From contig NZ_CP022463.1 of NCBI RefSeq assembly GCF_002224485.1, positions 1,770,817-1,834,816 on the forward strand: a stretch of 64,000 nucleotides of DNA, in the 5' to 3' direction. Both the position numbers and the translations under genes were made by a program. Of this stretch, positions 46,138 to 55,426 are shown in pieces. Each line of letters opens with the position of its first letter. Position 1 is the stretch's first letter. The DNA comes from Sinomonas sp. R1AF57 (GTDB taxonomy: Bacteria; Actinomycetota; Actinomycetes; Actinomycetales; Micrococcaceae). The notes beneath the pieces are model-generated. The model was not told the origin of the DNA and did no database searches. It worked only from the letters and a program-made list of their open reading frames with translations.

Positions 46138-46827
46138 CTACGCTTCTCCTCTGATCATGCGGATGAAAAGTTCATGGATCCGTGTCTCGCCCGTCACCTC
46201 GGGATGGAACGATGTGGCGAGCAGCCGTCCAGAACGCACTGCGACAATTCTAGACCTGCCCCCGAGCGCGGCCGTGTGCGACGCGTGCGCGGGATCCACC
46301 TCGGCGAGCACCTCGACATCGGGCCCCACCCGCTCGACCCAGGGTCCCCTGATGAAGACGGCGTGGACCGGGCCCCCCGACTGGTCGACCTCCTTGAAGT
46401 CCAAGTCCGTCTCGAACGACTCGCGCTGGCGCCCGAAGGCATTGCGGCGGACGGTGATGTCGAGTCCGCCGAACGTCTCCTGCGGCTTCCCGGAGAGGTC
46501 CGCCGTGGGGTCCGCGATCTCGTCTGCAAGCAGGATCATCCCAGCGCACGAGCCGTAGACCGGGAAGCCCTCCCGGATTTTGGCGCGCAGGGGGTCGGTG
46601 AGACCGAAGGCCCGGGCGAGCTTGTCGATCGTCGTCGACTCCCCGCCGGGGATCACGAGCCCGTCGAGGTCGTCCAGTTCTTCAGGCCGCCTGACCTTCA
46701 CGGCGCGGGCGCCCACGTGCGTCAGTGCCGCGAGATGCTCGCGGACGTCCCCCTGGAGGGCGAGCACGCCGACAAGGGGCGCGTTTCCGGTGCGCTCGGA
46801 CGGAGGGGGCGGAACGAGAGAAGTCAC
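46138..46827 (-). CDS. pdxT: Pyridoxal 5'-phosphate synthase glutaminase subunit PdxT
   Basis: Glutaminase that feeds ammonia to PdxS in the DXP-independent PLP pathway. In 229 residues: [25 protein letters not shown], the nucleophile in [11 protein letters not shown], and the catalytic SFHPEVT. The GTG start at 46827 has the hexamer TAGACT only 6 nt upstream and no ribosome-binding site. Its partner pdxS lies 6.3 kb away, on the same strand but beyond three plus-strand genes. Confidence 0.96.
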
Positions 46828-46937: not shown

Positions 46938-49601
46938 ATGTGCGGAATCGCCGGATACTTCGGCGCCGGGCTCGACGAATCGCTCCTGAAGGAGATGAAC
47001 TCCTGCATCCTGCACCGGGGGCCCGACGGCGAGGGGTACTTCGCCGACGGGAAGGTCGGCCTGGCGCACCGCCGGCTCGCCATCGTCGACATCGCCCACG
47101 GCCAGGAGCCGATGGTCAGCGCGGACGAGGAGACGGTTCTCGTCTACAACGGCGAGGTCTACAACTACCGGGAGCTGCGGGGCGAGCTCGAGGCGCTCGG
47201 CCGCACCTTCCGCACCGCCTCCGACACGGAAGTCGTGCTCCAGGCTTATGAGCAGTGGGGCACGGAAGCGTTCGACCGCTTCAACGGCATGTTCGGCCTC
47301 GCCATCTTCGACCGACGCCGCAACCAGCTCGTCCTGGCGCGCGACCACTTCGGCATCAAGCCCCTCTACTGGGCCAACGCCGGCACCGAGTCCGAGCCGC
47401 AGCTGCTCTTCGCCTCCGAGATCCGCCCCATCCTCGCCACGGACCTCATCGAGGCCAAGCCCAATGAGCGGATCCTCTACCGGTACCTCCAGTACCGGAT
47501 CCACGACGACACCGCGGAGACCTTCTTCGAGGGGGTCAACAAGCTCCTGCCCGGCGAGATGATGACGGTCGACCTCGGCACCGGACGCTTTCGCATCTCC
47601 TCGTACACACGGCTCCGCGAGGAGCTCGAGGAGCTCGCCAAGGTCGGCACGCCGTACACGCCCGAGGTCGTCGACGAGTACCGCCGCCGGTTCACGGAGG
47701 CGATCCGCATCCGCCTCAACTCGGAGGTCCCCGTGGGCAGCGCCCTCTCGGGGGGCCTGGACTCGTCCGCCGTCGTGGTGACGATCAACCGCCTCATGCA
47801 GGAGAACGCCGAGGGTCTCGAGGCCGTCGGCGCGAAGCAGAACACCTTCAGCGCGGTCTTCCCGAACGCGATCAACGACGAGGAGAAGTACGCCGACGCG
47901 GCCATCAACGTCTGCAGCGGCAACATCGCGGCTCACAAGATCAAGCCGACCCCCGAAGGATTCGACGCCGACCTCGTCGACTTTGTGCGCACCATGGAGG
48001 AGCCGATCATCTCCTCGGGCCCCTACGCGCAGTACTGCGTGATGAAGGAGGCCAGCAAGCATGTGACCGTGCTCCTCGATGGCCAGGGCGCCGACGAGAT
48101 GATGGCCGGCTACATCCCCTACTACTTCGCCTACCTGCGCCAGCTCAAGGCCAAGGGCGACTACGCCACGCTCGCCAAGGAGACGGCGTCGAGCCTCGAC
48201 ATCTTCTACCGGCTCGGCCGGTTCCGCCTCCAGGGCAAAGTCAGCGGCAAGAAGACCGTCAGCATGGGCTCGCTCCTGAAGAAGGCATGGACCAAGCAGT
48301 TCGCGGGCGAGACCTTCGGGAACATCCCGGCGAACCTCAAGCTCCGCCTCATCGACGACCTCTTCGCCAAGTCCCTGCCCTCGCTCCTGCGCTACGAGGA
48401 CAAGAACACGATGCGCTTCTCGCTCGAGGGCCGCGTGCCGTTCCTCGACAAGGAGGTCGTGAAGTACCTCTTCTCGCTCTCGGACGAGGCGATCATCAAG
48501 GAAGGCTGGAACAAGCGGGTCCTGCGCGACGCCACCCGCGGGCTGCTCCCCGAGCTCATCAGCAACCGGCGCAACAAGATCGGCTTCACCACCCCCGAGG
48601 CGGAGTGGTTCACGCTCATGAAGGAGCGCCTCTACAAGATCTTCATGTCCAACTCGTTCTACTCGCGCCCTTACTGGGACCGCGAGCAGGTCCTGACGGC
48701 CTTCGAGGAGTACCTCGACGGCAAGAACGACGCGGACACGATGATCTTCTGGCGCCTGCTGAACGTCGAGCTCTGGCTGCGCGAGTTCATCGACAAGGAC
48801 GAGGCCCCCGCGGACGTCAAGGCCAACAAGAGCGACTACGAGGCAAACCCGGGCAAGGAGCTCGACATCGCCTCGAACGGCTCCGTGTTCCGGCGCTACC
48901 CGCTGCAGACCGACGTCTTCGCGAAGGACACCGATCTCGCCGCCGGCGTCACCTCCTACGTCAAGCGCTTCTTCGACGGGCTGCCGGACGCGCCCGCCGA
49001 GGCGCGGACCGCCGTCGAGGGCAAGAAGTGGTACCTCCTCGTGAGCGAGAAGATCGTCGCGATCACCCAGGGCCGCTCGTTCCCCGTCTGGGAGATCAAG
49101 GTGACTCCTGCGGCGCGCGTGCTCTCCAAATTCGTGACGCGCACCCCGGCCGGGATCGGCCTCGGCAGCCCGTGGTCGATGCAGATCGCGATCAACGAGG
49201 TCGGCCTGCCGCTCATCGCGAAGGCCGCCGCCGCCTCGGTCGTCGGGAAGCTGCAGGGCAAGAGCGGCGTCTTCTACGACGTGGTGGGCCACAACATCAA
49301 CGCGATCGACGGCGCGACCCCGTACAGCCTCGGCGCGGCCAGCAACTCGGTGAAGCTCGCACCCAAGGACCCCGACGGCGTCGCCCGCGCCCTCAGCGCG
49401 GCGGTGAGGGCGGCGCTCCCGGCCGAGGCGGCGGCGTCGTTCGGCGGCAGCGCGGTCATGGACGCGAACGACCTCGGCGTCGTCGTCATGGGCCACGACA
49501 CCGATCTGCCGAAGGAGACCATCGCCGGGATGTTCAAGGACAACCCCCAGGGGCAGGGCTCCCAGGCCACGCCGATGTCCCTCGTCTTCGCGCAGGACTG
49601 A
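46938..49601 (+). CDS. Asparagine synthetase (glutamine-hydrolysing) fused to a CofE-like gamma-glutamyl ligase domain
   Basis: An 887-residue fusion. Residues 1-210 are a class II glutaminase with Cys2 (MCGIAGYFG), RGPDGEG and YNGEVYNYREL. Residues 240-617 are the AsnB synthetase domain with the ATP loop SGGLDSS at 271-277, LLDGQGADE and RVPFLDKEVV. From about 650 to the end is a second domain resembling the F420-0:L-glutamate ligase family: WYLLVSEKIVAITQGR, a GVFYDVVGHNINAIDG stretch, SNSVKLAPKDPDGVARAL, MDANDLGVVVMG and KDNPQGQGSQATP. Known AsnB enzymes are about 550-640 residues and lack this part. The ATG follows GAGGA. It could make asparagine or amidate another carboxylate; the extra domain suggests peptide-like ligation to Glu or Asp. 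Domain identity is from recognition, not a search. Confidence 0.88.
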   Translation: MCGIAGYFGAGLDESLLKEMNSCILHRGPDGEGYFADGKVGLAHRRLAIVDIAHGQEPMVSADEETVLVYNGEVYNYRELRGELEALGRTFRTASDTEVVLQAYEQWGTEAFDRFNGMFGLAIFDRRRNQLVLARDHFGIKPLYWANAGTESEPQLLFASEIRPILATDLIEAKPNERILYRYLQYRIHDDTAETFFEGVNKLLPGEMMTVDLGTGRFRISSYTRLREELEELAKVGTPYTPEVVDEYRRRFTEAIRIRLNSEVPVGSALSGGLDSSAVVVTINRLMQENAEGLEAVGAKQNTFSAVFPNAINDEEKYADAAINVCSGNIAAHKIKPTPEGFDADLVDFVRTMEEPIISSGPYAQYCVMKEASKHVTVLLDGQGADEMMAGYIPYYFAYLRQLKAKGDYATLAKETASSLDIFYRLGRFRLQGKVSGKKTVSMGSLLKKAWTKQFAGETFGNIPANLKLRLIDDLFAKSLPSLLRYEDKNTMRFSLEGRVPFLDKEVVKYLFSLSDEAIIKEGWNKRVLRDATRGLLPELISNRRNKIGFTTPEAEWFTLMKERLYKIFMSNSFYSRPYWDREQVLTAFEEYLDGKNDADTMIFWRLLNVELWLREFIDKDEAPADVKANKSDYEANPGKELDIASNGSVFRRYPLQTDVFAKDTDLAAGVTSYVKRFFDGLPDAPAEARTAVEGKKWYLLVSEKIVAITQGRSFPVWEIKVTPAARVLSKFVTRTPAGIGLGSPWSMQIAINEVGLPLIAKAAAASVVGKLQGKSGVFYDVVGHNINAIDGATPYSLGAASNSVKLAPKDPDGVARALSAAVRAALPAEAAASFGGSAVMDANDLGVVVMGHDTDLPKETIAGMFKDNPQGQGSQATPMSLVFAQD

Positions 49602-51621: not shown

Positions 51622-51709
51622 ACCGGGCACCGGGCGGAACACGGCCCTTCGCCCCTGCCCGCGCACGCGCACCTGCGCGACAGTGGAGGGGACACGCGAG
51701 GAGGACCAG

Positions 51710-53005
51710 ATGCACGTGTTCAAGGACAGGTCCGAGGCCGGCCGTGAACTTGCCCGCGCGCTCACACGCTTCCGCGGGCCGGGGACAGTCGTCCTCGGGC
51801 TCCCCCGCGGCGGCGTCCCGGTGGCCTTCGAGGTCGCTGTGGCCCTAGACGCCCCTCTGGACGTGATCGTGGTCCGCAAGCTCGGCGTACCTTTCCAGCC
51901 TGAGCTCGCGATGGGGGCGGTCGGCGAGAACGGCGTCCGTGTCCTCGACGACCGGGTACGCTCGCTGTCCGGGGTGACCGAGCGCGAACTCGCGCTGGTG
52001 GAGGCGCGGGAACGCGAAGTCCTCGAGAAGCGCGTCGCCCAGATCCGGGCCGTCCGCCCGCCCGAGGACCTCCACGGGAAGACAGCCGTCATCGTCGACG
52101 ACGGCATCGCCACCGGCTCGACCGCCCGGGTCGCCTGCCGGGTCGCCCGCGCGCTCGGCGCCGAGCACGTCATCCTCGCCGTGCCGGTGGGCCCGAAGGA
52201 CACCGTCGGGGACCTCCCGGAGGCCGACGACGTGGTCTGCCTGACGACTCCGTCTCCGTTCCGGGCGGTGGGGCGCTTCTACAACGACTTCTCCGCGACG
52301 GAGGACGACGAGGTCCTCCACCTCCTCGATGCGGCCGCGCGGCGCCCGGCCGCGGTGTCCCCGCAGAAGGATTCCGCACCGGTGCACGAGGACGTGCTCA
52401 TCCCGCTCGACGGGGTCACCGTCCAGGGCAGCCTCCACCTCCCGGCCACCGGCGGCGTCGTCGTGTTCGCCCATGGAAGCGGCAGCAGCCGGCACAGCCC
52501 GCGGAACCGGGCCGTGGCCCGCGTCCTCCAGAACGCCGGACTCGGCACCCTCCTGCTCGACCTCCTGTCCCCGGACGAGGAGCTGGAGCGCCGGGCTGTC
52601 TTCGACATCGGGCTCCTGGCCTCCCGCCTCACGGCAGCGACCGACTGGCTGCGCTCGGAGCGCGCCGGGTCCAGGACCGTCGGGTATTTCGGGGCCAGCA
52701 CCGGCGCGGCAGCCGCCCTGTGGGCAGCGGCGGAGCCGGACTCCGGCATCTCGGCCGTGGTCTCGCGCGGCGGCCGCCCGGACCTCGCGATCGGGCGCCT
52801 CGGCGATGTGCAGGCGCCCACGCTCCTGATCGTCGGCGGGGCGGACCACCAGGTCCTCGAGCTCAACCGCGAGGCGGCCCGGCACCTCAGGTGCCCGCAC
52901 CGGCTCGAGGTCGTCCCGCGCGCTACCCACCTCTTCGAGGAGCCTGGCACGCTCGACGCCGTGGCGCGCCTCGCCCGGGACTGGTTCGCCGAGCACCTGG
53001 CCTGA
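51710..53005 (+). CDS. Phosphoribosyltransferase / alpha-beta hydrolase fusion
   Basis: A 431-residue two-domain protein. Residues 1-215 are a type I phosphoribosyltransferase-like domain (VVLGLPRGGVPVAFEVA, PRPP loop AVIVDDGIATGSTARVA). From about 225 to the end is a dienelactone-hydrolase-like domain with the nucleophile elbow YFGASTGAAAALWA, an acid-containing VGGADHQVLELN and a catalytic histidine in PRATHLFEEPG. The same fusion is seen in mycobacteria (Rv0571c). Its substrate is unknown. The ATG at 51710 has GAGGAGGA 5 nt upstream. It ends in a bidirectional terminator facing pdxS. Confidence 0.9.
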   Translation: MHVFKDRSEAGRELARALTRFRGPGTVVLGLPRGGVPVAFEVAVALDAPLDVIVVRKLGVPFQPELAMGAVGENGVRVLDDRVRSLSGVTERELALVEAREREVLEKRVAQIRAVRPPEDLHGKTAVIVDDGIATGSTARVACRVARALGAEHVILAVPVGPKDTVGDLPEADDVVCLTTPSPFRAVGRFYNDFSATEDDEVLHLLDAAARRPAAVSPQKDSAPVHEDVLIPLDGVTVQGSLHLPATGGVVVFAHGSGSSRHSPRNRAVARVLQNAGLGTLLLDLLSPDEELERRAVFDIGLLASRLTAATDWLRSERAGSRTVGYFGASTGAAAALWAAAEPDSGISAVVSRGGRPDLAIGRLGDVQAPTLLIVGGADHQVLELNREAARHLRCPHRLEVVPRATHLFEEPGTLDAVARLARDWFAEHLA

Positions 53006-53134: not shown

Positions 53135-54043
53135 CTACCAGCCGCGCTCGGCGAGGCGGTGAGGTGCCGGGATGTCGTCGACGTTGATGCCCACCATGGC
53201 CTCGCCCAGGCCGCGGGAGACCTTGGCGATCATGTCCGGGTCGTCGAAGAAGGTCGTGGCCTTCACGACGGCGGCCGCGCGCTGGGCCGGGTTGCCGGAC
53301 TTGAAGATGCCGGACCCGACGAACACGCCGTCGGCGCCGAGCTGCATCATCATCGCCGCGTCCGCCGGGGTCGCGATGCCGCCGGCGGTGAAGAGCACCA
53401 CCGGGAGCTTGCCGGTCTCGGCGATCTCGCGCACGAGCTCGTACGGGGCCTGCAGCTCCTTCGCCGCGACGTAGAGCTCGTCCTCGGGCATCGAGGACAG
53501 GCGCTTGATCTCGGCCCGGATCTTGCGCATGTGGGTGGTCGCGTTCGAGACGTCGCCGGTGCCGGCCTCGCCCTTGGAACGGATCATTGCCGCGCCCTCG
53601 TTGATGCGGCGCAGCGCCTCGCCGAGGTTGGTCGCACCGCACACGAACGGGACGGTGAAGGCCCACTTGTCGATGTGGTTCTCGTAGTCGGCCGGGGTGA
53701 GGACCTCGGACTCGTCGATGTAGTCGACCCCGAGGGACTGCAGGACCTGGGCCTCGACGAAGTGGCCGATGCGGGCCTTGGCCATGACCGGGATGGAGAC
53801 CGCGTTGACGATCGAGTCGATCATGTCCGGGTCCGACATGCGGGACACGCCGCCCTGGGCGCGGATGTCAGCAGGGACGCGCTCGAGCGCCATGACCGCC
53901 ACGGCCCCGGCGTCCTCGGCGATCTTCGCCTGCTCGACGTTGACGACGTCCATGATGACGCCGCCCTTGAGCATCTCGGCCATGCCACGCTTGACCCGGC
54001 TGCTGCCGGTCGTGGGTGCCGAGGCGTTTGCTTCAGTAGACAC
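53135..54043 (-). CDS. pdxS: Pyridoxal 5'-phosphate synthase subunit PdxS
   Basis: TIM-barrel synthase making PLP from ribose 5-phosphate, glyceraldehyde 3-phosphate and ammonia from PdxT. In 302 residues: [19 protein letters not shown] with the catalytic Asp, [13 protein letters not shown] with the Schiff-base lysine, and [13 protein letters not shown]. The GTG at 54043 (VSTEANAS) is the sensible start; the open frame runs further upstream into pgsA. It lies 68 nt after pgsA, where TAGACT at 54099-54104 could be its own -10. Confidence 0.96.
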
Positions 54044-54111
54044 GTACTCGTCTTTCTTGTCGCGCGAAAAAGCTTGGATACGTCTGGTGGGACACCCCAG
54101 TCTATCGCCCG

Positions 54112-54732
54112 TCAGGCGGGCGCGTCCCCAGTGGCGGCCTGAACCCGGACGGTCGCGATCCGCTGCCCCACGGTGACCGCGCTGGCGACGGCGAGGACCC
54201 CCAGGGCCCAGGCCAGGACCACGGTCGGCAGCCCCAGCCCGCACAGTCCCGTGACGACCAGCGTGAGGACGAGGCGCTCGGCCCGCTCGGCGATGCCCAC
54301 GTTCGCGTCGAAGCCGAGGGACTCCGCCTTCGCACGGGCGTAGGAGACGAGGTTCCCGAGGGCAAGGCACACGACGGCGAGGACGCCGACGGCGGGGCTC
54401 CCGCCCGCTCCGAAGAACCAGAACGCGATTCCTGCGAAGACGGCACCGTCCTGGACGCGGTCCAGGGTCGAGTCGAGGAAGCTCCCCCACCGGCCGGTGC
54501 GGCGCGTCAGCCTGGCCATGATGCCGTCGAGGACATCCGAGAAGATGAACACCGTGATCGCGATCGTGCCCCAGAAGAGCTCGCCGAGCGGATAGAGCAC
54601 GAGGGCCGAGGCCGTCACCCCGAGCGTGCCCACGGCGGTCACGGCGTCCGGGGACACGCCCAGGCGCAGGAGGAATGCCGCGAGCGGCGTGAAGAGCCGT
54701 GTGAAGAGCGCCCGCGCGTGCCTATTGAGCAC
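54112..54732 (-). CDS. CDP-alcohol phosphatidyltransferase, probable phosphatidylinositol-phosphate synthase
   Basis: A 206-residue membrane protein with about six helices and the CDP-alcohol phosphatidyltransferase signature DVLDGIMAR ... [12 protein letters not shown] (DGxxAR-x8-GxxxDxxxD). The gene order thrS-HIT-this gene matches the mycobacterial pgsA1 locus, whose product joins inositol 1-phosphate to CDP-diacylglycerol. Phosphatidylglycerol-phosphate synthase is the alternative. The mannosyltransferase and acyltransferase that follow pgsA1 in mycobacteria are absent here. The GTG start overlaps the HIT gene by 11 nt. Confidence 0.88.
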
Positions 54733-55426
54733 CCGTGTCCGTCCCCGGCCCGCGCCCGGCCAGCCGCTCGCCGTCGTCCTCCCCCGTCCCCGGCCCGCGC
54801 CCGGCCAGCCGCTCGCCGTCGTCCTCCCCCGTCCCCGCCACGGTGGGCCAGGCCTCCGCGATGACCTCCCGGGTCTCCCCGAGAGTCTGGGTGATCTGCT
54901 TGGTCTGGGCGATGATCGGCAGGAAGTTGCCGTCGCCTCCCCAGCGGGGCACGACGTGCTGGTGGAGGTGCGCGGCGATGCCCGCCCCGCCGGCGTCGCC
55001 CTGGTTGATGCCGAGGTTGAAGCCGTGCGGTCCGGCCACCTTGCGGATCACGCGCATCGCGGTCTGGGTGATCTCCGCCATCTCAGCCGTCTCCTCGGCG
55101 GTGATGTCGGTGTAGTCGGCCACGTGGCGGTACGGGCACACGAGGACATGGCCGGGGTTGTACGGGTACAGGTTCAGGATGGCGAAGCACGTGCGGCCGC
55201 GGTGGACGATGAGGGCCTCCTCGTCGGTCCGGCCGGGCGCAGCGCAGAACGGGCACTCCTTGTCCTTGTACTGGCCCTGGCCGCCCTTGATGTAGGCCAT
55301 GCGGTGCGGCGTCCACAGACGCCCGAAGGCGTCGGGCGTGCCCGGGAGCTCGAAGTCGTCGGTCACCTCGCTGTCCTGCGGCGCGGGGCCCGCAGGAGCG
55401 CTCTGCGCGCCGGTGGGGTCCGCCAT
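54722..55426 (-). CDS. HIT-domain nucleotide phosphorylase/hydrolase
   Basis: A 234-residue protein of the histidine-triad superfamily. The triad is AAHLHQHVVPRW. The N-terminal half resembles the diadenosine-tetraphosphate phosphorylase of mycobacteria (Rv2613c): PHRMAYIKGG, ECPFC, LNLYPYNPGHVLVCPYRH. The position between thrS and pgsA is conserved. Aminoacyl-tRNA synthetases make Ap4A as a by-product, so an Ap4A-removing enzyme beside thrS makes sense. The C-terminus carries two exact copies of GTGEDDGERLAGRGP. Confidence 0.93.
   Translation of the reverse strand: MADPTGAQSAPAGPAPQDSEVTDDFELPGTPDAFGRLWTPHRMAYIKGGQGQYKDKECPFCAAPGRTDEEALIVHRGRTCFAILNLYPYNPGHVLVCPYRHVADYTDITAEETAEMAEITQTAMRVIRKVAGPHGFNLGINQGDAGGAGIAAHLHQHVVPRWGGDGNFLPIIAQTKQITQTLGETREVIAEAWPTVAGTGEDDGERLAGRGPGTGEDDGERLAGRGPGTDTGAQ
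54741..54838. repeat. 45-bp tandem repeat at the HIT gene 3' end
   Basis: Two identical 45-bp units (54741-54785, 54786-54830) plus 8 bp of a third. The repeat is in frame and duplicates a 15-residue acidic/basic tail just before the stop and the pgsA overlap. Confidence 0.9.

Follow-up and report, generated by a model that had tools for sequence, protein, structure and literature searches.

A gene of Sinomonas sp. R1AF57 (Micrococcaceae) joins, in a single 887-codon frame, a complete asparagine synthetase of the AsnB type to a C-terminal domain that, as judged from profile comparison and structure prediction, is a diverged branch of the CofE fold superfamily, to which the F420-0:gamma-glutamyl ligases belong. 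The gene lies in a stretch of 64,000 nucleotides of contig NZ_CP022463.1 (positions 1,770,817 to 1,834,816, forward strand), hereafter the window. The architecture is well supported and is conserved in many relatives. The explanation that we favour, with confidence and doubt evenly balanced, is a bifunctional amide-forming enzyme whose two halves would modify, one after the other, a single acidic metabolite or peptide precursor.

Architecture and distribution of the fusion gene

An initial annotation, made from the sequence alone, had placed one complete AsnB and a further domain in one 887-codon frame. Translation of 46938–49601 on the forward strand bears this out, running without internal stop through 887 codons to a stop codon, containing every motif that the annotation quoted and giving matches in Pfam and NCBIfam (Table 1). 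Over the whole protein, Pfam returned Asn_synthase (PF00733) at 211.5 bits for residues 248–615, together with GATase_7 (PF13537) at 151.4 bits and PF13522 at 147 bits. The NCBIfam asparagine synthase model TIGR01536 scored 398.4 bits against a cut-off of 267.1, and both of its motifs, the Cys2 nucleophile (MCGI) and the SGGLDSS loop, are present, as is a DGQGADE motif. Cys2 is the nucleophile of class-II glutaminases, and MCGI opens all 31 full-length Micrococcaceae fusions that were read (the window, L024–L051, L055 and L056; 30 distinct, as L043 and L049 are identical; L numbers denote loci, and G numbers genomes, with G000 the 3.94 Mb, one-contig host genome).

Upstream, the frame stays open to a GTG at 46725, which would give 958 residues; the ATG at 46938, which gives MCGI and has a GAGGA stretch just 5' of it, is the likely start. 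A 927-residue antisense open reading frame overlaps the fusion, and a frame of such length could arise by chance alone in GC-rich DNA here. Homology and conservation across genomes nevertheless identify 46938–49601 as a real gene.

Frames of fusion length (894–1008 residues) occur in all 15 genomes of the genus, its own included, and in 20 of 20 named loci a single frame runs from MCGI through the C-terminal domain. Among 197 Micrococcaceae genomes 45 match, 43 with frames of at least 889 residues and two with shorter ones (588 residues in G056, 564 in G560); the three sets overlap, and their counts are not independent. The domain was found in 29 of 98 relatives overall, and a profile of 17 relatives, run on 396 genomes sampled from the whole phylum, detected fused and stand-alone forms in 24. 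Outside the Micrococcaceae, full fusions are present in G148, G413 and G136, from two other families, with a contig-end piece in G159; a class-wide search around G148 found the domain in three of five genomes. A faecal contig labelled as phage (L176) also carries a full fusion, while a plasmid search gave no match and a viral-contig scan gave 37 pattern matches, none confirmed. The occurrence throughout the genus, in 43 Micrococcaceae and in two further families indicates that the fusion is genuine and not an artefact. Full-text literature searches, which left most subscription papers outside their coverage, returned no paper describing an AsnB–F420-ligase architecture, in keeping with the earlier statement that no such enzyme was known to have been described; a term search of the F420 review PMC8498797 gave no match.

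A tree of 29 AsnB rows groups all 16 AsnBs that are joined to the domain or abut it (12 from Micrococcaceae, three distant fused ones from other families and one abutting) in one clade (100/100), apart from 13 others, some of which come from the same genomes. This tree left out the degenerate L052–L054, the intact L176, characterised LtsA and E. coli AsnB, and it carries a long-branch warning among the other AsnBs. Deep nodes are unresolved in a 30-row tree of the CofE-like domain, where single and several fusion origins are not separable. Distances in the two halves correlate at r 0.97 (190 pairs of 20), a value confounded by species descent.

The C-terminal domain and its relation to CofE

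About 235 C-terminal residues had been noted to look like the F420-ligase family, a likeness that single-sequence scores do not carry past the family cut-off. F420_ligase (PF01996) scored 16.4 bits with the whole protein and 20.4 bits (E 4.1e-4) with the last 233 residues, against a cut-off of 25, and all Micrococcaceae fusions tested fall under that cut-off. At E ≤ 1 the window domain matched neither TIGR01916, the NCBIfam CofE equivalog, nor TIGR04132 (FolC2; cut-off 350), and phmmer of the last 233 residues found no relative in the PDB. Three results nonetheless uphold the label. First, PF01996 is matched above its cut-off by relatives from outside the Micrococcaceae, among them the fused G148 at 50.8 bits and the stand-alone G479 at 43.8 bits. 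Second, hhalign of 16 relatives against three canonical CofE sequences gave a probability of 96.9 and an E value of 1.5e-10 over 139 columns, covering about the first two thirds. Lastly, an AlphaFold2 model of the domain, with a mean predicted local distance difference test (pLDDT) of 81.2 and a predicted template modelling score of 0.82, matched in Foldseek at E ≤ 0.001 only five CofE chains of A. fulgidus (Archaeoglobus; 2g9i, 2phn, 7uld; E 2e-7 to 7e-6). The template modelling scores of these matches (0.45–0.52) and root mean square deviations of 6–8 indicate a fold that has diverged from CofE. The assignment therefore stands on hhalign, Foldseek and the relatives, and not on the single-sequence score.

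The domain begins near residue 637, at a conserved N-P-G-K block, as opposed to residue 650 in the initial annotation. It shares with CofE and the N-terminal domain of FbiB (PF01996, TIGR01916) the fold, the N-terminal two thirds of the profile, a K...GR segment and both putative metal aspartates. Within the shared segment E704, K705, G712 and R713 are invariant in 16 of 16 alignment rows. The aligned aspartates bind metal in CofE, and their counterparts, Asp791 and Asp842, are both invariant, as is N844. Unlike CofE and FbiB, the window domain scores below the PF01996 cut-off, gives no TIGR01916 match, carries an extra helical segment ahead of the first aspartate (seen in model and alignment), is fused to AsnB and resides in a host without detectable F420 genes. 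It also has a C-terminal signature of its own, DNPxGQ...TP, in which N869, P870, G872, Q873, T878 and P879 are invariant in all 16 rows and D868 is kept in at least 90%. The hhalign alignment ends at template position 160 of 272 and the window domain is shorter at the CofE C-terminal part, which, with its Arg234, has no aligned counterpart, although a counterpart may be too diverged to align. Arg234 contacts F420, according to PMC10861534.

Table 1. Features of the fusion gene and flanking pdx genes, in window positions
Feature	Positions	Strand	Basis
Whole fusion gene, 887 residues plus stop	46938..49601	+	Translation; frames of fusion length across the genus
Class-II glutaminase domain, residues 1–170, Cys2 in MCGI	46938..47447	+	PF13537, PF13522
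Asparagine-synthetase ATP-pyrophosphatase domain, residues 248–615	47679..48782	+	PF00733, TIGR01536
SGGLDSS pyrophosphate loop, residues 271–277	47748..47768	+	Invariant in 17 alignment rows
Linker, about residues 616–636	48783..48845	+	PF00733 end to conserved N-P-G-K block
Putative CofE-like ligase domain, about residues 637–887	48846..49598	+	Pfam, hhalign, AlphaFold2/Foldseek, conservation
SEKIVAITQGR, residues 703–713, counterpart of CofE segment ending SKAEGR	49044..49076	+	hhalign
Asp791-Gly792, aligned with aspartate of CofE G-[VI]-D-A-S-N	49308..49313	+	hhalign; D and G invariant in 16 of 16 rows
D842-A-N-D845, Asp842 aligned with second CofE aspartate in TD[ST]xGR	49461..49472	+	hhalign
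C-terminal signature DNPxGQ...TP, residues 868–879, characteristic of the branch	49539..49574	+	Conservation
pdxT	46138..46827
pdxS	53135..54490

A proposed two-part reaction and its alternatives

AsnB enzymes convert a carboxylate to an acyl-AMP, to which ammonia is then attached. CofE instead forms an acyl phosphate with GTP and two Mn2+ ions and attaches glutamate, with its pocket at the dimer interface (PMC10861534). By analogy, the N-terminal half of the fusion would hydrolyse glutamine and pass ammonia to an acyl-AMP-activated carboxylate, leaving a primary amide, and the C-terminal half would be a metal-dependent CofE-fold ligase, which most likely spends a nucleoside triphosphate to turn a carboxylate into an acyl phosphate and then couples this to an amino acid, probably glutamate, through the amino group of the latter. 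The occurrence of both enzymes on one chain suggests that one substrate receives both the amino acid and the primary amide. We infer both activities, their order and the shared substrate and, given the missing TIGR01916 match and the unaligned CofE C-terminal part, glutamate as the added amine.

Both halves appear to be used in the Micrococcaceae, as the ratios of nonsynonymous to synonymous substitution (dN/dS) between the window and seven relatives are low in each (0.11–0.22 for AsnB, 0.07–0.34 for the CofE-like domain). Five AsnB motifs (the Cys2-type start, SGG[LI]DSS, [DN]GQxxDE, PFLD and GFTTPE) are kept in 31 of 31 full-length Micrococcaceae fusions and in G148, G136, G413 and G331. None of the five was found in L052 (G069), L053 (G056) or L054 (G086). 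In the domain tree L052 has L176 as its sister (98/94), and the AsnB of L176 looks intact, so that the loss in L052 is probably secondary. Between these two loci the CofE-like domains are 83% identical with a dN/dS of 0.32, and the AsnB halves are 36% identical with a dN/dS of 1.4 (NG86, uncertain alignment). From this decay of AsnB beside a retained CofE-like half, and from the existence of stand-alone domains, we infer that the ligase would be the core reaction and AsnB an added enzyme tailoring the same acidic metabolite or peptide precursor by amidation.

A number of observations weigh against the coupled reaction. Stand-alone CofE-like genes are common, many without an adjacent AsnB; the AsnB halves of G069 and G086 lack Cys2 and SGGxDSS and that of G056 is mostly gone, while the CofE-like half persists. 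The halves are thus separable and a joint reaction is not obligatory in every lineage; the coupling is not general. Comparisons of L176 with L045 and the window gave dN/dS values of 0.38–0.77 for AsnB and 0.51–0.97 for the CofE-like domain, with no sign of strong constraint, NG86 being unreliable on such diverged GC-rich genes. The second Lys of CofE SKAEGR is replaced in the window domain and, together with the unaligned CofE C-terminal part, this means that use of GTP and glutamate is not safely transferable. The full-length AlphaFold2 model (pLDDT 42.8) is unusable for placing the active sites face to face, no conserved operon partner names a substrate across the loci compared, and an AsnB half above the TIGR01536 cut-off makes plain asparagine synthesis a possible function. 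Of the initial interpretation, the fusion, the CofE fold and a likely non-F420 substrate hold, whereas the idea of one enzyme that both amidates and extends is weakened by the separability of the halves.

Plain asparagine synthesis is the basis of the first alternative, which takes the AsnB half for an ordinary asparagine synthetase; the CofE-like half would then be either a separate enzyme sharing the chain or one that uses the resulting asparagine as amine donor. We consider this unlikely. Besides its TIGR01536 score, the fusion is the sole PF00733 match in the host genome, and so may be the only glutamine-dependent asparagine synthetase there. Asparagine for protein can, however, come from tRNA amidation, and AsnRS was above its cut-off (342.6 bits) in none of the 25 genomes searched, all of which have weaker matches, the best of 230 bits in G434 (GatCAB and AsnA not searched). 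Of 22 tested Micrococcaceae, sampled from the 152 of 197 without the domain, 18 have no PF00733 match, one has a 23-bit match and three have strong ones (G030, G034, G044); with 19 of the 22 lacking a strong AsnB, free asparagine does not seem to be required from such a gene in the family. The AsnB clade is moreover tied to a CofE-like partner, and the best-scoring PDB entry is 7ylz, described as a 'hydroxyamidotransferase' (162.7 bits), with E. coli AsnB behind it at 137.6 bits.

Comparison with characterised AsnB-type enzymes also leaves room for a different substrate. Like TIGR01536 AsnB, LtsA and Listeria AsnB, the window AsnB has a complete glutaminase and ATP-pyrophosphatase with SGGLDSS and DGQGADE; unlike them, it is fused to a CofE-like ligase and falls in a clade apart from the 13 other AsnBs of our tree, none of them characterised LtsA. 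In the N-acetylglutaminylglutamine amide system (TIGR03104) an AsnB-type enzyme amidates the product of a separate ligase, which is of another fold; the window protein resembles it in a 313-bit NCBIfam match and departs from it in falling far below the cut-off of 570.1. Ungapped extension beyond the aligned stretch places Leu483 and Tyr486 opposite E. coli Asp384 and Arg387. AsnB homologues that amidate diaminopimelate in peptidoglycan, a precedent for substrates beyond aspartate, have an extra loop and lack the Asp-binding D and R, as described in PMC8554201.

It is quite unlikely that the domain works as an F420-0 or folate gamma-glutamyl ligase, with CofE or FolC2 function, and that AsnB amidates the cofactor tail. 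The CofE fold would suit such a role, and PMC1971073 reports that a folC mutant of E. coli was complemented by FolC2 (CT611; TIGR04132), the Chlamydia homologue of CofE, which shows that the CofE superfamily has a non-F420 function. FolC2 resembles the window domain in being a CofE-superfamily protein in organisms thought, according to that source, not to make F420. A stand-alone relative (L177) lies near folate one-carbon genes, downstream of formate-THF ligase and cyclodeaminase genes, and gave the best TIGR04132 match of the relatives tested, a weak 24.6 bits. The window domain, by contrast, matches neither FolC2 nor CofE equivalogs, has no folate gene among its queried neighbours (host folC not searched) and is fused to an amidotransferase.

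As for F420, the initial annotation had seen no F420 synthesis genes in the window and thought another substrate plausible, and our searches for TIGR03551 and the CofD family extend this to the whole genome. TIGR03551 (CofH/FbiC) gave no match in the host genome at E ≤ 0.001, and the sole CofD-family match sits in a run read as uvrC-rapZ-yvcK-whiA and is itself read as yvcK. F420 is therefore an unlikely substrate in the host, and on these grounds an F420 function there was rejected. A TIGR03551 match of some kind was found in 15 of 25 genomes tested. Eight carry FbiC-type matches, six above the cut-off and two below it (G434 and G407, at 250–255 bits in long frames), and all eight also have a separate, canonical PF01996 gene (167–247 bits). 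In G331, G099 and G424 the near-threshold CofH matches are MqnE and MqnC and the strong CofD-family matches are YvcK, and we rejected these genomes as CofH/CofD carriers served by the CofE-like gene. The TIGR03551 matches in G037, G056, G560 and G204 reach just 23–33 bits, and G114 has a single CofD-family match. A canonical PF01996 gene accompanies the CofE-like relative in 11 of the 25 genomes; in the other 14 the CofE-like gene is alone, G000 and G424 each having an extra 14.5-bit match taken for chance. Those 11 comprise the eight FbiC-type genomes and three that have a canonical PF01996 gene without a CofH match, G180, G069 (C1:1888256-1888846, 146 bits) and G086 (C1:662674-663270, 151 bits).

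The domain might instead no longer be an enzyme and bind nucleotide in a regulatory or structural role for AsnB, which we find very unlikely. Acidic and polar residues are invariant across 16 diverse members, and the domain outlives AsnB, as the L052 (G069) and L176 pair illustrates, although a module that regulates AsnB should be lost together with it. The divergence from CofE, the shorter C-terminus and the score under the Pfam cut-off would fit such a module, as would the relatives placed at the C-terminus of frames with TPR-like repeats (L094, L095 and L096; repeats read by eye). That chance or a sequencing error joined two neighbours is of negligible probability and was rejected, since the same single frame recurs in many independent assemblies and in distant families, even if long frames are common in GC-rich DNA and G331, where AsnB (666 residues) and the CofE-like protein (238 residues) are separate genes abutting at TAAATG, shows that adjacency is possible.

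Genomic neighbourhood and significance

We compared the neighbourhoods of 30 Micrococcaceae loci with an intact fusion (L024–L051, L055 and L056; 29 distinct), gene names being read by eye except where a family search is stated. On the AsnB side pdxT is the nearest queried gene in all 30, its distance being 92–233 bases in 28 loci, 711 bases in L050 and 3229 bases in L048. An M3-type peptidase is present in 26 loci and pdxS in 20, part of the loci not reaching far enough. The pdxT and pdxS genes are often adjacent elsewhere; in the window the fusion gene, a peptidase-like frame and one further gene lie between them, and both flank the fusion in 20 of the 30 loci. This neighbourhood points to vertical inheritance at a fixed site and not to an operon that names a pathway.

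In other lineages dapA lies downstream in G069 and dapB upstream in L176, and in G086 the fusion is the last gene of a tightly packed lysC-asd-TetR-fusion run with 4-base overlaps as called. G331 has a proC and divIVA region and G413 metK; in G424 an Orn/Lys/Arg decarboxylase gene shares 4 bases with the CofE-like gene, and in G099 and G114 a class-III aminotransferase gene stands beside it. G434 has a sigma-70 gene as neighbour, as does G407 by eye, G204 a MurT-GatD-like frame, and G479 and G182 iscU/suf-like frames, by eye. The contexts differ between lineages, and an attempt to read the substrate from the neighbours was abandoned. Genes for aspartate, lysine and diamino acids seem favoured, and diamino-acid or wall-precursor chemistry is a lead only.

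Several further observations concern these loci. In L091 (5097-9458) and L092 (8908-13608), from two families, a stand-alone CofE-like gene, a class-III aminotransferase, an MtnX-like HAD phosphatase and a dnaX-like gene follow in the same order (family searches for both aminotransferases and the L091 phosphatase, the remainder by eye). L090 (5323-8528) has a 741-residue frame with MurT then GatD (200 and 37.5 bits, under the equivalog cut-offs), 285 bases upstream of a stand-alone CofE-like gene. Two contigs labelled Bacteriophage sp. look like mislabelled bacterial contigs: L176 (MT835656.1), with dapB, an RNase J-like frame and the AsnB-CofE fusion, and L177 (MT838774.1), with the formate-THF ligase, cyclodeaminase and CofE-like genes. 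Within the window, a frame at about 51704–53005 on the forward strand, also present in some, though not all, Sinomonas loci, resembles a phosphoribosyltransferase followed by an alpha/beta-hydrolase domain (by eye), and a HIT-family-like protein (54722–55426, reverse strand) ends in a 15-residue stretch that is repeated, GTGEDDGERLAGRGP occurring twice.

We postulate, as a proposition that could fall either way, that the CofE-like domain is a further, F420-independent branch of the CofE superfamily in several actinobacterial families, which in the Micrococcaceae and a few other lineages is fused (in one genome abutting) to its own AsnB clade, and that the AsnB-fused form makes an undescribed amidated glutamyl or isopeptide product, for example a small metabolite or an altered precursor of the cell wall. 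Homology readily leads to CofE-type proteins being named F420 ligases. Members of this branch persist in actinobacteria that have no detectable F420 genes and accompany a canonical CofE in those that have them, and some lineages tie them to a dedicated amidotransferase. The split pair of G331 and the AsnB decay in G069, G086 and G056 are natural experiments on which the division of labour can be tested. Identification of the product would represent a new use of the CofE fold and a correction to annotation, and may reveal a new metabolite or wall modification in common soil bacteria.

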